Below are positions 10,880 to 61,021 of a DNA stretch of 64,000 bases, in pieces. This DNA is from Thermoproteota archaeon (GTDB taxonomy: Archaea; Korarchaeota; Korarchaeia; Korarchaeales; Korarchaeaceae), in the NCBI GenBank assembly GCA_027491415.1, contig JAOZFH010000056.1, forward strand, positions 1 through 64,000. Direction: 5' to 3'. Position 1 is the first letter of the stretch, and the number at the start of each line of letters is the position of its first letter. The position numbers were made by a program, and so were the translations under genes. A model generated the notes under the pieces. It saw only the letters and a list, made by a program, of their open reading frames with translations. It had not been told where the DNA came from and did no database searches.

Positions 10880-11875
10880 CTACTGACCCTCGGCTGACTC
10901 GCGGAAGGAGGCCATCTGCTTCTTCAGGTCCTCCGGAAGCTGCTCCAGCCAGAGCTTGTGGACCTTGGCGAGGAGTTCCTTGTACCTGTTTCGGACCGTG
11001 ACCTCGGTGACGCCCGCGGCCTGAGCAAGCTCTCTCTGAGTCTTGTGCTCACCGAACTCCTGGCTGGCCATGTATATGGCAGCCGCCGCAACGCCGACGG
11101 GCTCCCTCCCCATAGTCGCCCCCTGCTGACGGGCTATCTTCAGTATCCTGATGGCCTGGGTAGCCACCCTCTCGGGCAGCCCCAGCTTGGCGCATATTGC
11201 GTAGACGAAGTTCTCCGGCTTGGGAGGCGGTATCCTTATGCCCAGCTTCCTGAACAGGAAGCGAAAGCTCCTTCCCACCTCCTTCTCCTTCAAGTTGAAG
11301 AGTGAGGCGACCTCTTCCAGCGACCGAGGCACGTCCGTCCTCCTGCACGCCGCATAGATCACGGCGGCCACCATGGCGTCCATGCTCCTACCCTTCACCA
11401 GACCCTCACCGGCCGCCTTCCGATAGAGCATGGCGGCGTCCTCCACGGTCTCAGGAGGCAGGTTCAGGGTCTCGGCCGCGAGTCTTATCTTCCTGAGGGC
11501 TGGCTCCACCGCCTTTTCCCTAGCATCGCTGACGTGCCTGTGAGTCCTCCTGAGGGTCTGAACGGACTTCCTGCTCAATCCGCTGGTCATGGCAATGTCG
11601 GAGTCTAGGCCGTATCCGGATCGGGTTGGGGTTACTGGGGCCCCGGTGTGCGCCCTATCCATGTACTCATCGGCGTCGAAGGCCCTCCAGTCCTTATCCG
11701 TATCAACCATACCCGTGCTTAGAATCAACCCACAGCTCGCGCAGACCAGCTCCCCAGTGTTCGGGTCCTTGATTATCTGATCGCTCCCGCAGCGGGGACA
11801 GGTAAACTTTACCTCAGTAAACAGGCTCTCCTTATCGCTCTTCCGGCCACCCTCCAAGGGATCCCCACCATCCAT
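10880..11875 (-). CDS. tfb: Transcription initiation factor B (TFIIB homologue)
   Basis: Full-length TFB. The N-terminal zinc ribbon has CPRCG and CASCG ~20 residues apart. A B-reader/linker region follows with DKDWRAFDADEYMDRAHTG, then two cyclin repeats; the second ends in the BRE-contacting helix-turn-helix TQRELAQAAGVTEVTVRNRY. TFB bridges TBP-bound promoters to RNA polymerase. I use ATG 11875. A TTG two codons earlier is possible, but the TATA element at 11891-11899 is ~20 bases from the ATG, which fits a leaderless transcript. A second, truncated TFB-like gene lies at 59018-59776. Confidence 0.97.
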   Translation of the reverse strand: MDGGDPLEGGRKSDKESLFTEVKFTCPRCGSDQIIKDPNTGELVCASCGLILSTGMVDTDKDWRAFDADEYMDRAHTGAPVTPTRSGYGLDSDIAMTSGLSRKSVQTLRRTHRHVSDAREKAVEPALRKIRLAAETLNLPPETVEDAAMLYRKAAGEGLVKGRSMDAMVAAVIYAACRRTDVPRSLEEVASLFNLKEKEVGRSFRFLFRKLGIRIPPPKPENFVYAICAKLGLPERVATQAIRILKIARQQGATMGREPVGVAAAAIYMASQEFGEHKTQRELAQAAGVTEVTVRNRYKELLAKVHKLWLEQLPEDLKKQMASFRESAEGQ

Positions 11876-11890
11876 TTTCAAAGTTTTCGC

Positions 11891-56736: not shown

Positions 56737-56761
56737 ATTGAGCCTCCCCGCGGCCCCGAAC

Positions 56762-57331
56762 TTGCCAGTAATTCTAGTCACGGGAGTTCCCGGGTCTGGG
56801 AAGAGCACGGTCTCTAGGATACTAGCTGAGAAACTCGGTGGTGAAGTCATCGAAGTCAACGTATTCGCTATTGAGAAGGGGCTGGTCGTCGGGGCTGATG
56901 AGGACAGAGGGGTTCATATACTCGATATTGATGGTCTGAGAACCGCTCTCCGTCGAGAACTCTCAGAGAGGGAGGGGTGGGTGATCGTCTCCACGACCTA
57001 CCCGGAGGCGGTACCGGCAGATCATGTGAGCTTCGTCGTTGTTCTGAGGTGCGATCCGGAGGAGCTCGCGGGGAGGCTCCTTAGTAGGAAGTACGAGAAG
57101 CCCAAGGTCATTGAGAACTTAGAGGCTGAGATCGTGGACTTCTGCGGAACGTCTGCCAGACACCACCTCCCAGGAAAGCCGTTGCTGGAGGTAGATACCT
57201 CGCGAATTTCCCCGGAGGAGGTGGCCGACGGGATCTTGGAGGCGATTCGGAAGGGGGTTGTCCAGAGTCAGCCGATTCGCTGGCCGAGGGGCCCGCTGGT
57301 GATCCAGAGGCTTAAGGCGAGGGATCCATAA
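56762..57331 (+). CDS. AK6/Fap7-type adenylate kinase (ribosome assembly NTPase)
   Basis: About 189 residues. It starts PVILVTGVPGSGKSTVSRIL (P-loop at ~7-15), then a core ending GLVVGADEDRGVHILDIDGLR, then VVLRCDPEELAGRLLSRKYEKPKVIENLEAEI, typical of the AK6/hCINAP/Fap7 group that acts as adenylate kinase and in 18S/16S rRNA end maturation. I take TTG 56762 because the TATA element at 56727-56736 would start transcription beyond TTG 56738, and homologues begin directly with the P-loop strand. The C-terminal ~20 residues are basic and not conserved. Confidence 0.88.
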   Translation: MPVILVTGVPGSGKSTVSRILAEKLGGEVIEVNVFAIEKGLVVGADEDRGVHILDIDGLRTALRRELSEREGWVIVSTTYPEAVPADHVSFVVVLRCDPEELAGRLLSRKYEKPKVIENLEAEIVDFCGTSARHHLPGKPLLEVDTSRISPEEVADGILEAIRKGVVQSQPIRWPRGPLVIQRLKARDP

Positions 57332-57339
57332 GCTTGGAA

Positions 57340-59025
57340 TCAATTCCTCCACTCCAGCGTGTGAAACGAGGGGGCCTTTTGAGCGAGAATGGTGAGTTCT
57401 CTATCCGTTATAGGTGTGGCTTCGACTGAGGGCGGAGCCACCGTACACCTCACTGGAGCGGGTCTGCCCTCCATGATCACGACGGCTTCACCTGGTCTGA
57501 GGGTGAAGATAGCGCTTGCTGGATCGTTCTCACCATCCTTCAGGGGGGAGAGGAGGGGTTTCAGGATTTGAAAATCTCTGGGGGATCCAAGTGCGTGGAT
57601 CACCTTTATGGCCGAGTTCCTCATGGCGCTTCTCGAGAGGGCGTGGGGGGCCTGAGTCACTATCATCATGCCCACCCCAAACTTCCTCAGTTCCCCAAGC
57701 ATCTTGTCAGTTACCGTAGCGCCCCTCTCATCTGAGATCGTGGGTAGGACGCGCTCTCCCTCTTCGACCAGCACCACCTGCCGGAGCGGAGATCCGAGTC
57801 CCCACGCCCTTGCGCTGTCGTAGACCCTCTTCAGGATCACATGAACTAGGAGGTCCCTTACCGTATCGGACTCTACGCTCCCTAGAAGTATGGAGGTTGG
57901 CCTGTCCAGCTGGCTGACGTTAGGAAATCTCTCAACCAGAAGATGGGCTCTCCCCTCTCCTTCGACGAGAGGCTCCAGCTTCCTTAGAAGCGCCAGCTTG
58001 CTCTCCATCTCCGGCCCACTTCTCTCCCTGTATTCGGATACCTCGTCCATCAAATCGGCCAACGTTGGGTCTTCTCCTAGACTCGCCCTCAGGGCGCTTG
58101 AGAGGCACCTATGGACTATGAAAGTCTGGGAGGGGGTGAGGCTGAGGGCATCTCGTAAAACCTCTACGTACATGTCGGCCCCCTGCGGATTTGATGCGAT
58201 CCCCCAGAGGACGTTCAGGGAAGGGCCACCGGAGGCGCCGACGACAGATCCTCCTAACCTCGTCACAATACCAGTGTATTCGTTGTGGTGATCCAGTACC
58301 AAAAATGGGATGCCGTAGTCAGACCACAGTCTCTCACATATAGCCATCGCAGTGGTTGACTTTCCAGAACCAGTCCTCCCCATTAGGAGGATGTGTTTAG
58401 AGATCAGGTTCACCGGCAGCCTTACAGGCCTTCTCCCACCATCATACCCAAGGAGCACTGCCGGCGAGCGCTTGCCCACCTCGACACTGGGCAGCCTGAG
58501 CCTCGGGGTAGAGGGAGTCCCGGACTTGCGTCCATAAGTCAAAAGATCAGGCCAAGTCCGCCTACCCATGTCAACAACTTCAAGGTCGCGTCCAAGTACG
58601 CTTCGAAGGGCGGACAGGGCCGCCTTGGCTGAGATGGCTCCCTTTTCCCCGCGCTCAGCTACGGCAAGAATAGGGGCCGACGGGCCGGATGAACCCAAGC
58701 GCTGGAGGAGGTGTCCTTCTAGCCCTGTTGCCTCCAGAACCTGGTGAATGAGGGTAACGTCCACTTCGGCCTTACTTCGGGAGTCCTTGGGTGTGAGGAC
58801 GTATGCATGAAGGTCCGCCTCCTGACCGCGGAGTCTAGACCTAGCGAGTAGTGCCAAGATTCCGGTAATTAGAGCTGTGGGCAGCAATATGGGCACGACC
58901 GACAGCAGCGTCTCGGAAGAAAGGCCCCAAGAGAGTTGAACACCGCGTGCCAGCTTTTTCCGCAGCTCGTTGACCACCACCAAGGCCACGAGAAGGTACG
59001 GAATATTTTTGCCTCTCTCAGGCAA
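57340..59025 (-). CDS. Membrane-anchored HerA/VirB4-like ATPase
   Basis: 561 residues. Two membrane helices at the N-terminus (~8-20 and ~40-62) are followed by a soluble linker domain (~70-195). The HerA/FtsK-superfamily motor then has Walker A LLMGRTGSGKSTTA (~213-226), HerA motif LVLDHHNEYTG (~242-252; HerA usually D-GEY), Walker B VVLVEEGERVL (~417-427), and sensor MMIVTQAPHALSRSAMRNS (~453-471) ending with the conserved 'ik' helix. HerA-like motors pump DNA; membrane forms occur in conjugation and surface systems. No conjugation genes are nearby. TTG 59025 overlaps the TFB-like gene by 8 bases. Confidence 0.82.
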   Translation of the reverse strand: MPERGKNIPYLLVALVVVNELRKKLARGVQLSWGLSSETLLSVVPILLPTALITGILALLARSRLRGQEADLHAYVLTPKDSRSKAEVDVTLIHQVLEATGLEGHLLQRLGSSGPSAPILAVAERGEKGAISAKAALSALRSVLGRDLEVVDMGRRTWPDLLTYGRKSGTPSTPRLRLPSVEVGKRSPAVLLGYDGGRRPVRLPVNLISKHILLMGRTGSGKSTTAMAICERLWSDYGIPFLVLDHHNEYTGIVTRLGGSVVGASGGPSLNVLWGIASNPQGADMYVEVLRDALSLTPSQTFIVHRCLSSALRASLGEDPTLADLMDEVSEYRERSGPEMESKLALLRKLEPLVEGEGRAHLLVERFPNVSQLDRPTSILLGSVESDTVRDLLVHVILKRVYDSARAWGLGSPLRQVVLVEEGERVLPTISDERGATVTDKMLGELRKFGVGMMIVTQAPHALSRSAMRNSAIKVIHALGSPRDFQILKPLLSPLKDGENDPASAIFTLRPGEAVVIMEGRPAPVRCTVAPPSVEATPITDRELTILAQKAPSFHTLEWRN

Positions 59026-59776
59026 ATCTGGCCACCTCCAACCCCTGCAGGAGGAGTTTAGTCCGCCTTCTCAGCGCCGAGGAGCTCACGCCTGCGGCGC
59101 GTGCCACCCTCTCCTGTGTTATGAACCTCAATCCCAGAGTCCTAGCCGTGAGCCACACGGTCGCCGCTGCCGTGACTGCCGGGCTCTTGCCGGCGAGTTC
59201 CAACCTCGTGACCTTGCCCGTCACCTTAAGCAGCTCGAGTGACTTCACGTGGAGCCTGTCAAGAGCGACGCCCCAATGTTCGCCGAAAAGGTCGCACAAG
59301 ATAGATTGAAGGGCGGGATCCCGCTTGAGGTGGGATACTATGGAGGATATGTATTGCCTCACCGACCTGCTGTCGATTACGGGTGACCTGCAAGCCGAAG
59401 ATACCTCACCCACCATGATCGCAAGCTTCTTGGGGCTTACCCTGAGCCCCACGCTGGCGGCAGCCTGTGAAACGGTCTTCAGTGTTAACGGAGTCCCGAG
59501 AATTCTGCTTGCCACGACCAGAGACGCCAAGTAGAGGTACCCCTTCCTCCTCCTGTGGAGGCTTTTTGGTAAGCCCGAGATAATCGCCTTAACCAGGTCC
59601 AAAAGTCGCGGAGGTGCGTCCAGCTCGCTTACTACCTCAGAGAGCCACCGGGGTAAGTGTTCTCTTCTCCCCCAAGCGAGGGGGTAGTGGTTTGCTAGGT
59701 CAGAGTAACTTACGTAGGGATCTACGGAGGACGACGGTTGCCACTCGCAGGCCGATGGAGGCAAGTCCCCCTCCAT
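59018..59776 (-). CDS. TFB-like double-cyclin protein lacking the zinc ribbon
   Basis: 252 residues made of two cyclin-fold repeats. Repeat 1 (~50-125) contains KGYLYLASLVVASRILG. Repeat 2 (~150-245) contains SPAVTAAATVWLTARTLGL and the helix-turn-helix TQERVARAAGVSSSALRRRT, almost superposable on the TFB segment TQRELAQAAGVTEVTVRNRY at 10880-11875. The N-terminal ~45 residues have a single Cys and no zinc ribbon or B-reader, so it cannot recruit polymerase as TFB does. It could be a regulator competing with or adapting TFB. ATG 59776 follows an AT-rich promoter. Operonic with the membrane HerA ATPase. Confidence 0.75.
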   Translation of the reverse strand: MEGDLPPSACEWQPSSSVDPYVSYSDLANHYPLAWGRREHLPRWLSEVVSELDAPPRLLDLVKAIISGLPKSLHRRRKGYLYLASLVVASRILGTPLTLKTVSQAAASVGLRVSPKKLAIMVGEVSSACRSPVIDSRSVRQYISSIVSHLKRDPALQSILCDLFGEHWGVALDRLHVKSLELLKVTGKVTRLELAGKSPAVTAAATVWLTARTLGLRFITQERVARAAGVSSSALRRRTKLLLQGLEVARFA

Positions 59777-59852
59777 GTTGACGGAATTGAGAAATATTAG
59801 TGTGAATTATGGAGAAAAAATTTAGGAAAATTTCTCAAAAGTTTCCTGCGAG
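59777..59852 (-). promoter_or_regulatory. AT-rich terminator/promoter region between the Rpb8-like gene and the TFB-like gene
   Basis: A 76-base gap of roughly 70% A+T. Read on the minus strand it contains several oligo-T runs (ACTTTTG, AAATTTTCC, AAATTTTTTCTCC) expected to terminate the upstream transcript, followed by ACTAATATTTCTC as a TATA-like element ~20 bases before the TFB-like ATG. GAGAAA-type inverted segments are also present. Confidence 0.45.
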
Positions 59853-60221
59853 TCAGGGGCTCGCGCTGACGATGTCTCTCAGCAGAAAGTAGACCTCGGC
59901 CCCCCTAGAGAAATTGGCCAGATCCGCCATTCGACCCTTAAGCTCCAGGATCACCAGTAGGCCGTATGCTGACGCTCGAAGGGAGTTCTCGTCAGACCGG
60001 TAGACCACAGTATTCATTAGAAGATCCCCTTCACTGGTGGTGGGCTTCTCCTCCACCAAAAGGGCCTCTCCCTCATATCCCTCTGATAGTCTTCGGGCAA
60101 GACCGAGTGGGACCTCGATCGAAAGGGCTCCCTCCACAGGGGACTCAACCGAGAACCTCAGAGTAGCTACTCCACCGACTGGATCTTCTTTCCTCTCAAC
60201 TAGCTTGACGTGGAGCTTCAT
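59853..60221 (-). CDS. rpoG: Probable RNA polymerase subunit G (Rpb8 homologue)
   Basis: 122 residues, beta-rich. The segment RASAYGLLVILELKG matches the Rpb8/RpoG hallmark (Y-G-L-L-V strand), and the end ANFSRGAEVYFLLRDI matches the terminal VYF(L/C)LR strand of Sulfolobus RpoG. The strand-rich N-terminal half (LHVKLVERKED ... TLRFSVESP) fits the OB-like fold. Rpb8 is known in crenarchaea and korarchaea. Similarity is short, so this is a probable rather than certain call. ATG 60221 start. Next gene downstream is the TFB-like protein, which strengthens a transcription theme. Confidence 0.55.
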   Translation of the reverse strand: MKLHVKLVERKEDPVGGVATLRFSVESPVEGALSIEVPLGLARRLSEGYEGEALLVEEKPTTSEGDLLMNTVVYRSDENSLRASAYGLLVILELKGRMADLANFSRGAEVYFLLRDIVSASP

Positions 60222-60619: not shown

Positions 60620-60904
60620 TTACTCCCCCTTCGTCGCTATGTAGAGTTTTAGAAGGCGCTCGTCGACGACTATCATCTCGCGAATGTACTTCACCGTTGA
60701 GTAGGGGATGAGGACGTATCCCTCTCGATCCCTCTTCAGCTTCTTGGTCAGAGAGCCGGCCGCTCCCTTTGCCTCCTCCACGACGAGGGAGATCGCCTTA
60801 CCCGACAGCTCGTCGACAACCAGGTCGACGAGTTCTCCGAGCACGAGACCCCTATCCGTAATGACCCCCCGACCTCCCAATCTGCTGACGGAGTACCTGG
60901 CCAC
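60620..60904 (-). CDS. PRC-barrel domain protein
   Basis: About 94 residues of a single PRC barrel: ARYSVSRLGGRGVITDRG, LVLGELVDLVVDELSGKAI and GYVLIPYSTVKYIREMIVVDE. PRC barrels occur in RimM and in small archaeal proteins of unknown role, often regulating or scaffolding. I use GTG 60904 (GGGAGGT ten bases upstream) because the longer frame would begin inside tRNA-Val(GAC) and encode low-complexity sequence. It is directly downstream of that tRNA on the same strand. Confidence 0.8.
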   Translation of the reverse strand: MARYSVSRLGGRGVITDRGLVLGELVDLVVDELSGKAISLVVEEAKGAAGSLTKKLKRDREGYVLIPYSTVKYIREMIVVDERLLKLYIATKGE

Positions 60905-60945
60905 GGACCCGTTACCTCCCGATCCCCGATCAGGGTTAACTCTGA

Positions 60946-61021
60946 TGGTGGGCCGGGTGGGACTCGAACCCACGACCTCCGCCTCGTCAAGGCGGCGTCA
61001 TAGCCGCTAGACCACCGGCCC
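60946..61021 (-). tRNA. tRNA-Val(GAC)
   Basis: Acceptor GGGCCGG/CCGGCCC, anticodon stem CCGCC/GGCGG with loop TTGACGA (anticodon GAC), T arm GTGGG-TTCGAGT-CCCAC, discriminator A, encoded CCA. It differs from tRNA-Val(CAC) only at loop positions 32, 34, 37 and 38. Confidence 0.97.

Follow-up and report, generated by a model that had tools for sequence, protein, structure and literature searches.

What is a relative of the general transcription factor TFB doing between the gene for an RNA polymerase subunit and the gene for a DNA-translocating ATPase? The question is raised by a stretch of 64,000 nucleotides from an archaeon of the Korarchaeaceae (contig JAOZFH010000056.1 of assembly GCA_027491415.1, positions 1 to 64,000; hereafter the window), in which a preliminary description had noted a TFB-like protein without a zinc ribbon, taken it for part of an unfamiliar system, and suggested that it could couple promoter choice or DNA anchoring to the membrane. 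The arrangement is real, is conserved and belongs to the neighbourhood of TFB3 and CedD; the unusual truncation of the TFB-like protein, here called TFBL, is what is new. On the sequence evidence, we lean towards TFBL being a dedicated TFB paralog of an rpoG-TFB-CedD locus, the positional counterpart of TFB3 of the Sulfolobales, which would regulate the transcription of DNA-exchange genes. It is probably a dedicated regulator of this kind rather than a new membrane-anchoring system.

Three genes on the minus strand compose the locus, and their open reading frames (ORFs) lie where they had been placed: rpoG (59853..60221), which encodes a Rpo8/Rpb8-like RNA polymerase subunit of 122 aa; the TFBL gene (59018..59776), which encodes 252 aa; and a gene for a HerA/VirB4-type DNA-translocating ATPase of 561 aa (57340..59025), read from a TTG start. 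The TFBL gene overlaps the ATPase gene by 8 nt, an overlap that hinges on this TTG start, and is separated from rpoG by 76 nt (59777..59852, minus strand), a stretch of 68% AT that is its candidate promoter. A scan for promoters and terminators with models of bacterial type returned signals at chance level. An AT-rich dyad, AATATTAATATT, is common to the rpoG-TFBL gap of L038, L051, L083 and L084. The Rpb8-like protein alone has no Pfam match; its family profile (A3), compared with the PDB, matches Rpb8 (1.9e-11) and archaeal Rpo8 (1.7e-8), and by this profile comparison the gene is homologous to Rpb8/Rpo8.

Conservation was followed through a group of 29 genomes, referred to as the phylum. 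A TFBL gene occurs in 25 of them, the exceptions being G022 (63% complete) and G026-G028. The ATPase gene lies directly 3' of it on the same strand in all 24 genomes that could be evaluated (G009 stops at a contig edge), so that the two genes, which the preliminary description expected to be neighbours in relatives, are so throughout. This adjacency spans seven genera, at 19-30% identity to the window TFBL (17 rows of alignment A1, sister genome excluded). On the other side, rpoG lies 5' of TFBL in 24 of 25 genomes, counting a contig-edge fragment in G012, and was not found there in G024; across 19 measured loci the gap between the two is -8 to 128 nt. In G027, a more distant member of the phylum, rpoG is directly followed by a CedD-like ATPase gene, without a TFB gene (L119 7498-9810).

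The ATPase is CedD-like by its matches, below the CedD cut-off. CedD is its best NCBIfam family (2.3e-32, 112 bits, against an equivalog cut-off of 600 bits for NF053655); DUF87 of Pfam matches at 63.5 bits, the best match among solved structures is HerA (9.5e-26), and the Walker A motif GRTGSGKS occupies residues 216-223 (58357-58380, minus strand). CedD is likewise the best family for seven further cassette or linked ATPases, none over the cut-off, with a lead of 42 to 175 bits over the next family. A tree of 57 ATPases splits ten HerA-type rows, with support of 100/100, from the other 47, which include the four CedD and the korarchaeal sequences; for five of these 47 no link to a TFB gene or to rpoG was seen in the stretch read. 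Of the korarchaeal sequences, 16 of the 18 korarchaeal rows form one clade (100/99) and two have no resolved place. A hydrophobic segment near the N-terminus (residues 35-53, 58867..58923, minus strand) may be a membrane anchor, although it is borderline, its 19-residue Kyte-Doolittle maximum being 1.66 where the threshold is 1.6. Each of the 18 korarchaeal rows contains at least one segment of this kind, and none was found by the same measure in the four TFB3-adjacent ATPases of L266-L269. The CedD-like protein may be split in some loci, where a 116-aa ORF without NCBIfam match precedes a 351-aa ATPase (L129 7294-8720, L183 5812-7238). CedD itself is a transmembrane DNA-import ATPase of Saccharolobus (PMC11868833).

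Is the same neighbourhood found in other archaea? We compared the locus with those of related archaea, meaning genomes of the phylum of G169 and some named loci; related loci were sought with the ATPase alignment. Throughout, the names Lsm, TGT, thermosome, HisRS, UMP kinase, radical-SAM and pilin are readings of the sequence, and Pfam backs the pilus-type ATPase and the prepilin peptidase where cited. The Rpb8 profile matched 38 of 300 genomes of that phylum at E 0.05, the last few weakly; its lack of matches in 32 other archaeal genomes (0/32) came without a positive control and so shows nothing. TFB directly follows rpoG in 16 of the 30 loci examined, and within a 1.5-kb flank a CedD-like ATPase follows in two and is divergent in one. 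The two genes, rpoG and that of a CedD-like ATPase, are near each other in L129-L131, L183, L184, L186, L272 and L276-L279, the rpoG call of L130 being weak (12 bits). With wider flanks, 13 rpoG-linked TFBs were read: a pilus-type ATPase lies 3' on the same strand in eight, and in four of these eight (L175, L181, L188, L189) a CedD-like ATPase comes after it, in L175 with reverse-strand ORFs between. At L181, T2SSE of Pfam scores above its cut-off and T2SSF below. The order TFB, pilus-type ATPase, CedD-like ATPase is found in L181, L188 and L189 and also in L192 (Ca. Methanosuratincola) and L193 and L194 (both Brockarchaeota), three loci in which no rpoG was detected. Finally, the ATPase gene of the window and those of, among others, L130, L131, L186, L192-L194 and L272 are followed by an adenylate kinase-like gene in convergent orientation, which argues that these loci and that of the window are the same ancestral locus.

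TFB3 lies in this neighbourhood as well. Genomes such as G169 are inferred to be of Sulfolobales type from a CedD above the cut-off together with their gene order; in four genomes read with such a CedD, the order is rpoG ... TFB3, a thermosome-like gene, CedD. In all six searched genomes with CedD above the cut-off, the two genes are arranged as in G169, with TFB3 about 1.8 kb from CedD; in G674, G678, G682 and G686, TFB3 comes immediately before a same-strand CedD-like gene, with gaps of 77, 10, -17 and 3 nt. The locus tags SiRe_1717 for Tfb3 (PMC10470591) and SiRe_1715 for CedD (PMC11868833) agree with this closeness. By location, the window TFBL falls with TFB3, since it too sits in the rpoG/CedD neighbourhood.

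The idea of a system without precedent is thus hard to maintain, because the same neighbourhood holds tfb3 and cedD where CedD scores above the cut-off, and because the links of rpoG with TFIIB and of TFIIB with pilus genes and RPB8 are published (PMC2234397; PMC4858521). Koonin described in 2007 a TFIIIB-type gene that runs in the same direction as rpoG in a korarchaeote and is divergent from it in most Thermoproteales (PMC2234397), Makarova reported in 2016 that Thermoproteus and Pyrobaculum have a variant of TFIIB accompanied by pilus genes and RPB8 (PMC4858521), and the genome of T. tenax has consecutive tags for TFB3 (TTX_1929) and RPB8 (TTX_1930) (PMC3189178). Searches of an open-licence library showed us no text linking the korarchaeal TFB-like gene to CedD or TFB3; such an absence is weak evidence, and the adjacency of tfb3 and cedD may already have been remarked on.

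TFBL is predicted to have two TFB-type cyclin folds and a C-terminal helix-turn-helix (HTH), as in canonical TFB. AlphaFold2, run on a 6-row alignment, returned a model with a mean predicted local distance difference test score (pLDDT) of 77.9 and two five-helix bundles, at about residues 38-128 (cyclin fold 1; 59393..59665, minus strand) and 136-251 (cyclin fold 2; 59024..59371, minus strand); the single-sequence model was uninformative (pLDDT 44.5). The closest structure to the model is the archaeal TFB core of Pyrococcus (1d3u; Z 17.8, root-mean-square deviation 3.8, 188 residues, TMt 0.72), so the cyclin folds on which the preliminary description relied are also those that structure prediction returns. 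On TFBL alone, Pfam TFIIB reaches 20.2 bits against a cut-off of 23.6 and covers the second repeat only (residues 194-242), and a profile of 19 korarchaeal TFBL sequences matches TFIIB (1.5e-18) and archaeal TFB from Pyrococcus (1.6e-15). Alignment to TFIIB supports the second fold and places the HTH inside it, at about residues 221-242; the arginine of the recognition helix aligns with the arginine in the TIRQS stretch of TFIIB, which presumably contacts the transcription factor B recognition element.

The N-terminal parts of a TFB are missing. No cysteine pairs of the zinc-ribbon type (CxxC) occur in the window TFBL, and a ribbon cannot be encoded upstream because only 76 nt are available there. 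No B-reader or B-linker was seen either: only residues 1-36, with pLDDT <50, precede the core, and nothing of the kind is seen in aligned relatives. Korarchaeal rows of the alignment have little sequence between the ribbon and the first cyclin helix, so that a B-reader seems to be missing throughout them. The preliminary description of a TFB-fold protein with two cyclin repeats and without ribbon or B-reader is confirmed. The protein had also been called blind to the polymerase; the absence of both elements stands, and the blindness itself is deduced from that absence.

Whether the missing ribbon marks the system as a whole could be judged across relatives with the pattern CxxC-x(8-24)-CxxC, a strict one that misses 8 of 31 canonical TFB rows. 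It is present in 14 of 23 korarchaeal TFBL orthologs and absent from nine, including those of the window, its sister genome and G004. Elsewhere it was found in 23/31 canonical TFBs, in 14/16 TFBs linked to such loci in other archaea (linked TFBs) and in 24/24 TFB3 sequences. The ATPase tree (18 rows) requires at least four changes of ribbon state, and the TFB tree, which itself contains the ribbon columns, at least three. Because most korarchaeal orthologs still carry the ribbon, the ribbonless TFBL is best seen as a derived form. For the same reason absence of the ribbon is rejected as a defining trait of the system, and belongs to some korarchaeal lineages only. The pattern is also absent from both rows of a second korarchaeal TFB-like paralog (0/2). 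In sister genome G001 the gene for this paralog is open (G001:C9, L087 6713-7636; Pfam TFIIB 40.7 bits) and lies in a pilus-type locus, where its neighbours are pilin-like genes and those of a T2SSE-type ATPase and a prepilin peptidase; the copy in the genome of the window has internal stops (G000:C51, L053 7763-8386).

TFBs of these loci stand apart from canonical ones. When the window canonical TFB (10880..11881, minus strand; Pfam TFIIB 148.5 bits and Zn_Ribbon_TF 52.7 bits; used for comparison only) served as query in ten genomes, it matched the rpoG-linked TFB in six (20-35 bits) and not in four, the best TFB of the same genomes scoring about 200 bits. In a second TFB tree, 30 canonical rows are split from 41 linked rows, two of which belong to the second korarchaeal paralog, with support of 100/100. 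Row CTFB_L213 was dropped from this tree, its branch of 3.98 suggesting a wrongly chosen ORF; with it included, support for the split is only 72/29, while the remaining 30 canonical rows stay together at 98/97. Korarchaeal linked TFBs form one side of a branch (95/90), and a grouping of TFBL with the korarchaeal canonical TFB is rejected (approximately unbiased test, p-AU 0.0006) for a group chosen after the first tree had been seen. TFBL as a duplicate of the korarchaeal canonical TFB is rejected accordingly, with caution as to long branches. By profile comparison TFBL scores 248 with linked TFBs (245 columns), 201 with canonical TFB (174) and 94 with TFB3 (62). TFB3 rows share too few columns and were kept outside both TFB trees.

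Several observations weigh against a TFBL dedicated to DNA exchange and equivalent in position to TFB3. Because many branches are long and the composition of the window row is odd, the trees may overstate the grouping. Canonical TFB is a better profile match than TFBL both for linked TFBs (282 against 248) and for TFB3 (124 over 104 columns against 94 over 62; 84.5 over 36 columns with linked TFBs); because these profiles place both nearer canonical TFB, orthology of TFBL and TFB3 rests on position. As for position, 33 of 43 genomes with a match to the TFB3 query have it on another contig or at least 12 kb from the CedD-like match listed (for G689, counted among them, no CedD-like position is listed), many of these matches being ribbon-only, and in L273-L275 no rpoG was detected close to the CedD-like gene. 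A match to the CedD profile is itself not distinctive, occurring in 379 of 394 archaeal genomes at E 0.001. CedA (NF041796) was found in 0 of 29 genomes, with only the S. acidocaldarius control positive, although a divergent CedA could escape such a search and CedB was not searched for. The ultraviolet motif of Sulfolobales, ANTTTC (PMC5817253), occurs in 9 of 20 regions 5' of TFBL against about 3.7 expected from shuffles, with sister genomes counted apart, an excess that points clearly neither way. Overlap of the TFBL and ATPase genes is found in 5 of the 21 loci measured, the other 16 having gaps of 28-295 nt. Lastly, the flanks are nearly as conserved as the cassette: counted over 22 loci of korarchaea, some of which run into a contig end, the adenylate kinase-like gene (56738..57331 in the window, plus strand, convergent with the ATPase gene; named from its sequence, Pfam AAA_18 2.9e-24, and used as a positional marker not claimed for the system) is present in 19, a PRC-barrel-like gene in 18, a UMP kinase-like gene in 17 and a radical-SAM gene in 15. 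Since these flanking genes are conserved in most loci, adjacency within the phylum is partly background. The PRC-barrel-like gene, 5' of rpoG, lies at 60620-60973 in the window and has a weak YlmC/YmxH match (1.3e-3).

Such flanks bear most directly on neutral retention, an explanation that we regard as rather unlikely, in which rpoG, TFBL, the ATPase and the adenylate kinase-like gene would be an ancient block and TFBL would have no functional tie to the ATPase. The Lsm-, TGT- and thermosome-like genes that also stand within the block of related archaea point the same way as the four korarchaeal flanking genes. However, G008 (15 kb read) and G010 (read up to the contig end) keep the cassette without those flanks, TFB and the CedD-like gene share a locus without detected rpoG in L192-L194, and TFB3 directly adjoins a CedD-like gene in four genomes. 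Moreover, ups and ced of Sulfolobus depend on tfb3, S. acidocaldarius tfb3 mutants being almost without an ups/ced response (PMC8578740). Closeness to rpoG could alternatively mean that TFBL is an initiation factor that still recruits the polymerase, for instance through Rpo8 or canonical TFB, at a subset of promoters, as haloarchaeal TFBs do. Cooperation of RpoG with TFIIIB was proposed by Koonin in 2007 (PMC2234397), and rpoG adjoins a TFB-type gene in nearly all korarchaeal genomes that have TFBL and in about half of the other rpoG loci; yet the known polymerase contacts, ribbon and B-reader, are exactly what the window TFBL lacks, and we consider this explanation improbable.

Direct physical coupling, in which TFBL bound to TBP and DNA would hand DNA to the membrane ATPase or anchor it there, appears to us very improbable. 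It could draw on the adjacency of the genes, on the borderline hydrophobic segment of the ATPase and on the loss of the polymerase-binding ribbon in the genus of the window, but that ribbon is kept in most korarchaeal orthologs and linked TFBs, the ATPases adjacent to TFB3 in L266-L269 have no hydrophobic segment, and TFB3, the characterised member of the family, is a transcription activator (PMC7289017). For DNA anchoring or promoter choice at the membrane, nothing beyond adjacency speaks in favour. Of the interpretation given in the preliminary description, the gene identities and their conservation are thus retained, and the novelty of the system and its coupling to the membrane are not.

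How might TFBL act as a dedicated regulator? It would bind TBP-DNA through its cyclin folds and HTH, and its targets would be the operon that it forms with the gene of the CedD-like pump and, perhaps, pilus genes at other loci. Because it has no ribbon, TFBL should be unable to recruit RNA polymerase by the usual route, and it might therefore act together with canonical TFB, as TFB3, reviewed as an activator, does in trans (PMC7289017). Alternatively, it might occupy target promoters and hold them down until DNA damage or a similar signal. TFBL and TFB3 may be seen as mirror images: TFB3 still has the polymerase-binding ribbon and has lost the promoter-binding HTH. A stronger form of this view, to which we give little credence, is that of one ancestral regulator only the polymerase-binding half was retained in the Sulfolobales and only the promoter-binding half in more than one korarchaeal lineage, leaving an activator in the former and, in the latter, a polymerase-blind repressor or promoter bookmark on TBP-bound DNA-exchange promoters.

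With TFBL as such a regulator, the pairs of rpoG and TFIIB, the TFIIB genes in pilus operons and the DNA-damage regulon of TFB3 and Ced would be tied to one neighbourhood of Korarchaeota and related archaea, which suggests an early dedication of a general transcription factor to the control of DNA exchange. Losses at opposite ends in TFB3 and TFBL would amount to a natural experiment that asks which half is needed for regulation by a TFB, and the locus provides a concrete candidate for DNA transfer in Korarchaeota.

Four known systems resemble the locus in part. CedD (SiRe_1715) shares with the window ATPase its HerA/VirB4-type architecture, its N-terminal hydrophobic segment (borderline in the window), its side of the tree and the nearby rpoG and TFB-type gene; the window protein differs in scoring far below the CedD cut-off, in a phylum where no CedA was found among the 29 genomes. 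Canonical archaeal TFB has in common with TFBL the two predicted cyclin folds and the C-terminal HTH, but TFBL is without ribbon and B-reader and is set apart in the tree. The rpoG-linked TFIIB variants of Thermoproteales (arCOG05559; TTX_1929/TTX_1930 in T. tenax) are, like TFBL, divergent TFBs beside rpoG, and linked TFBs of this kind share its side of the TFB tree; they differ in having a zinc finger, a single cyclin domain and pilus genes as companions (PMC4858521, PMC3189178). TFB3 of Sulfolobales (SSO0280, Saci_0665, SiRe_1717) is, like TFBL, a TFB paralog without B-reader in the rpoG/CedD neighbourhood. It retains the zinc ribbon and is described as lacking the B-finger and the C-terminal HTH (SSO0280; PMC2246294), whereas in the window TFBL the ribbon is the part that is missing, the two cyclin folds and the HTH being present.

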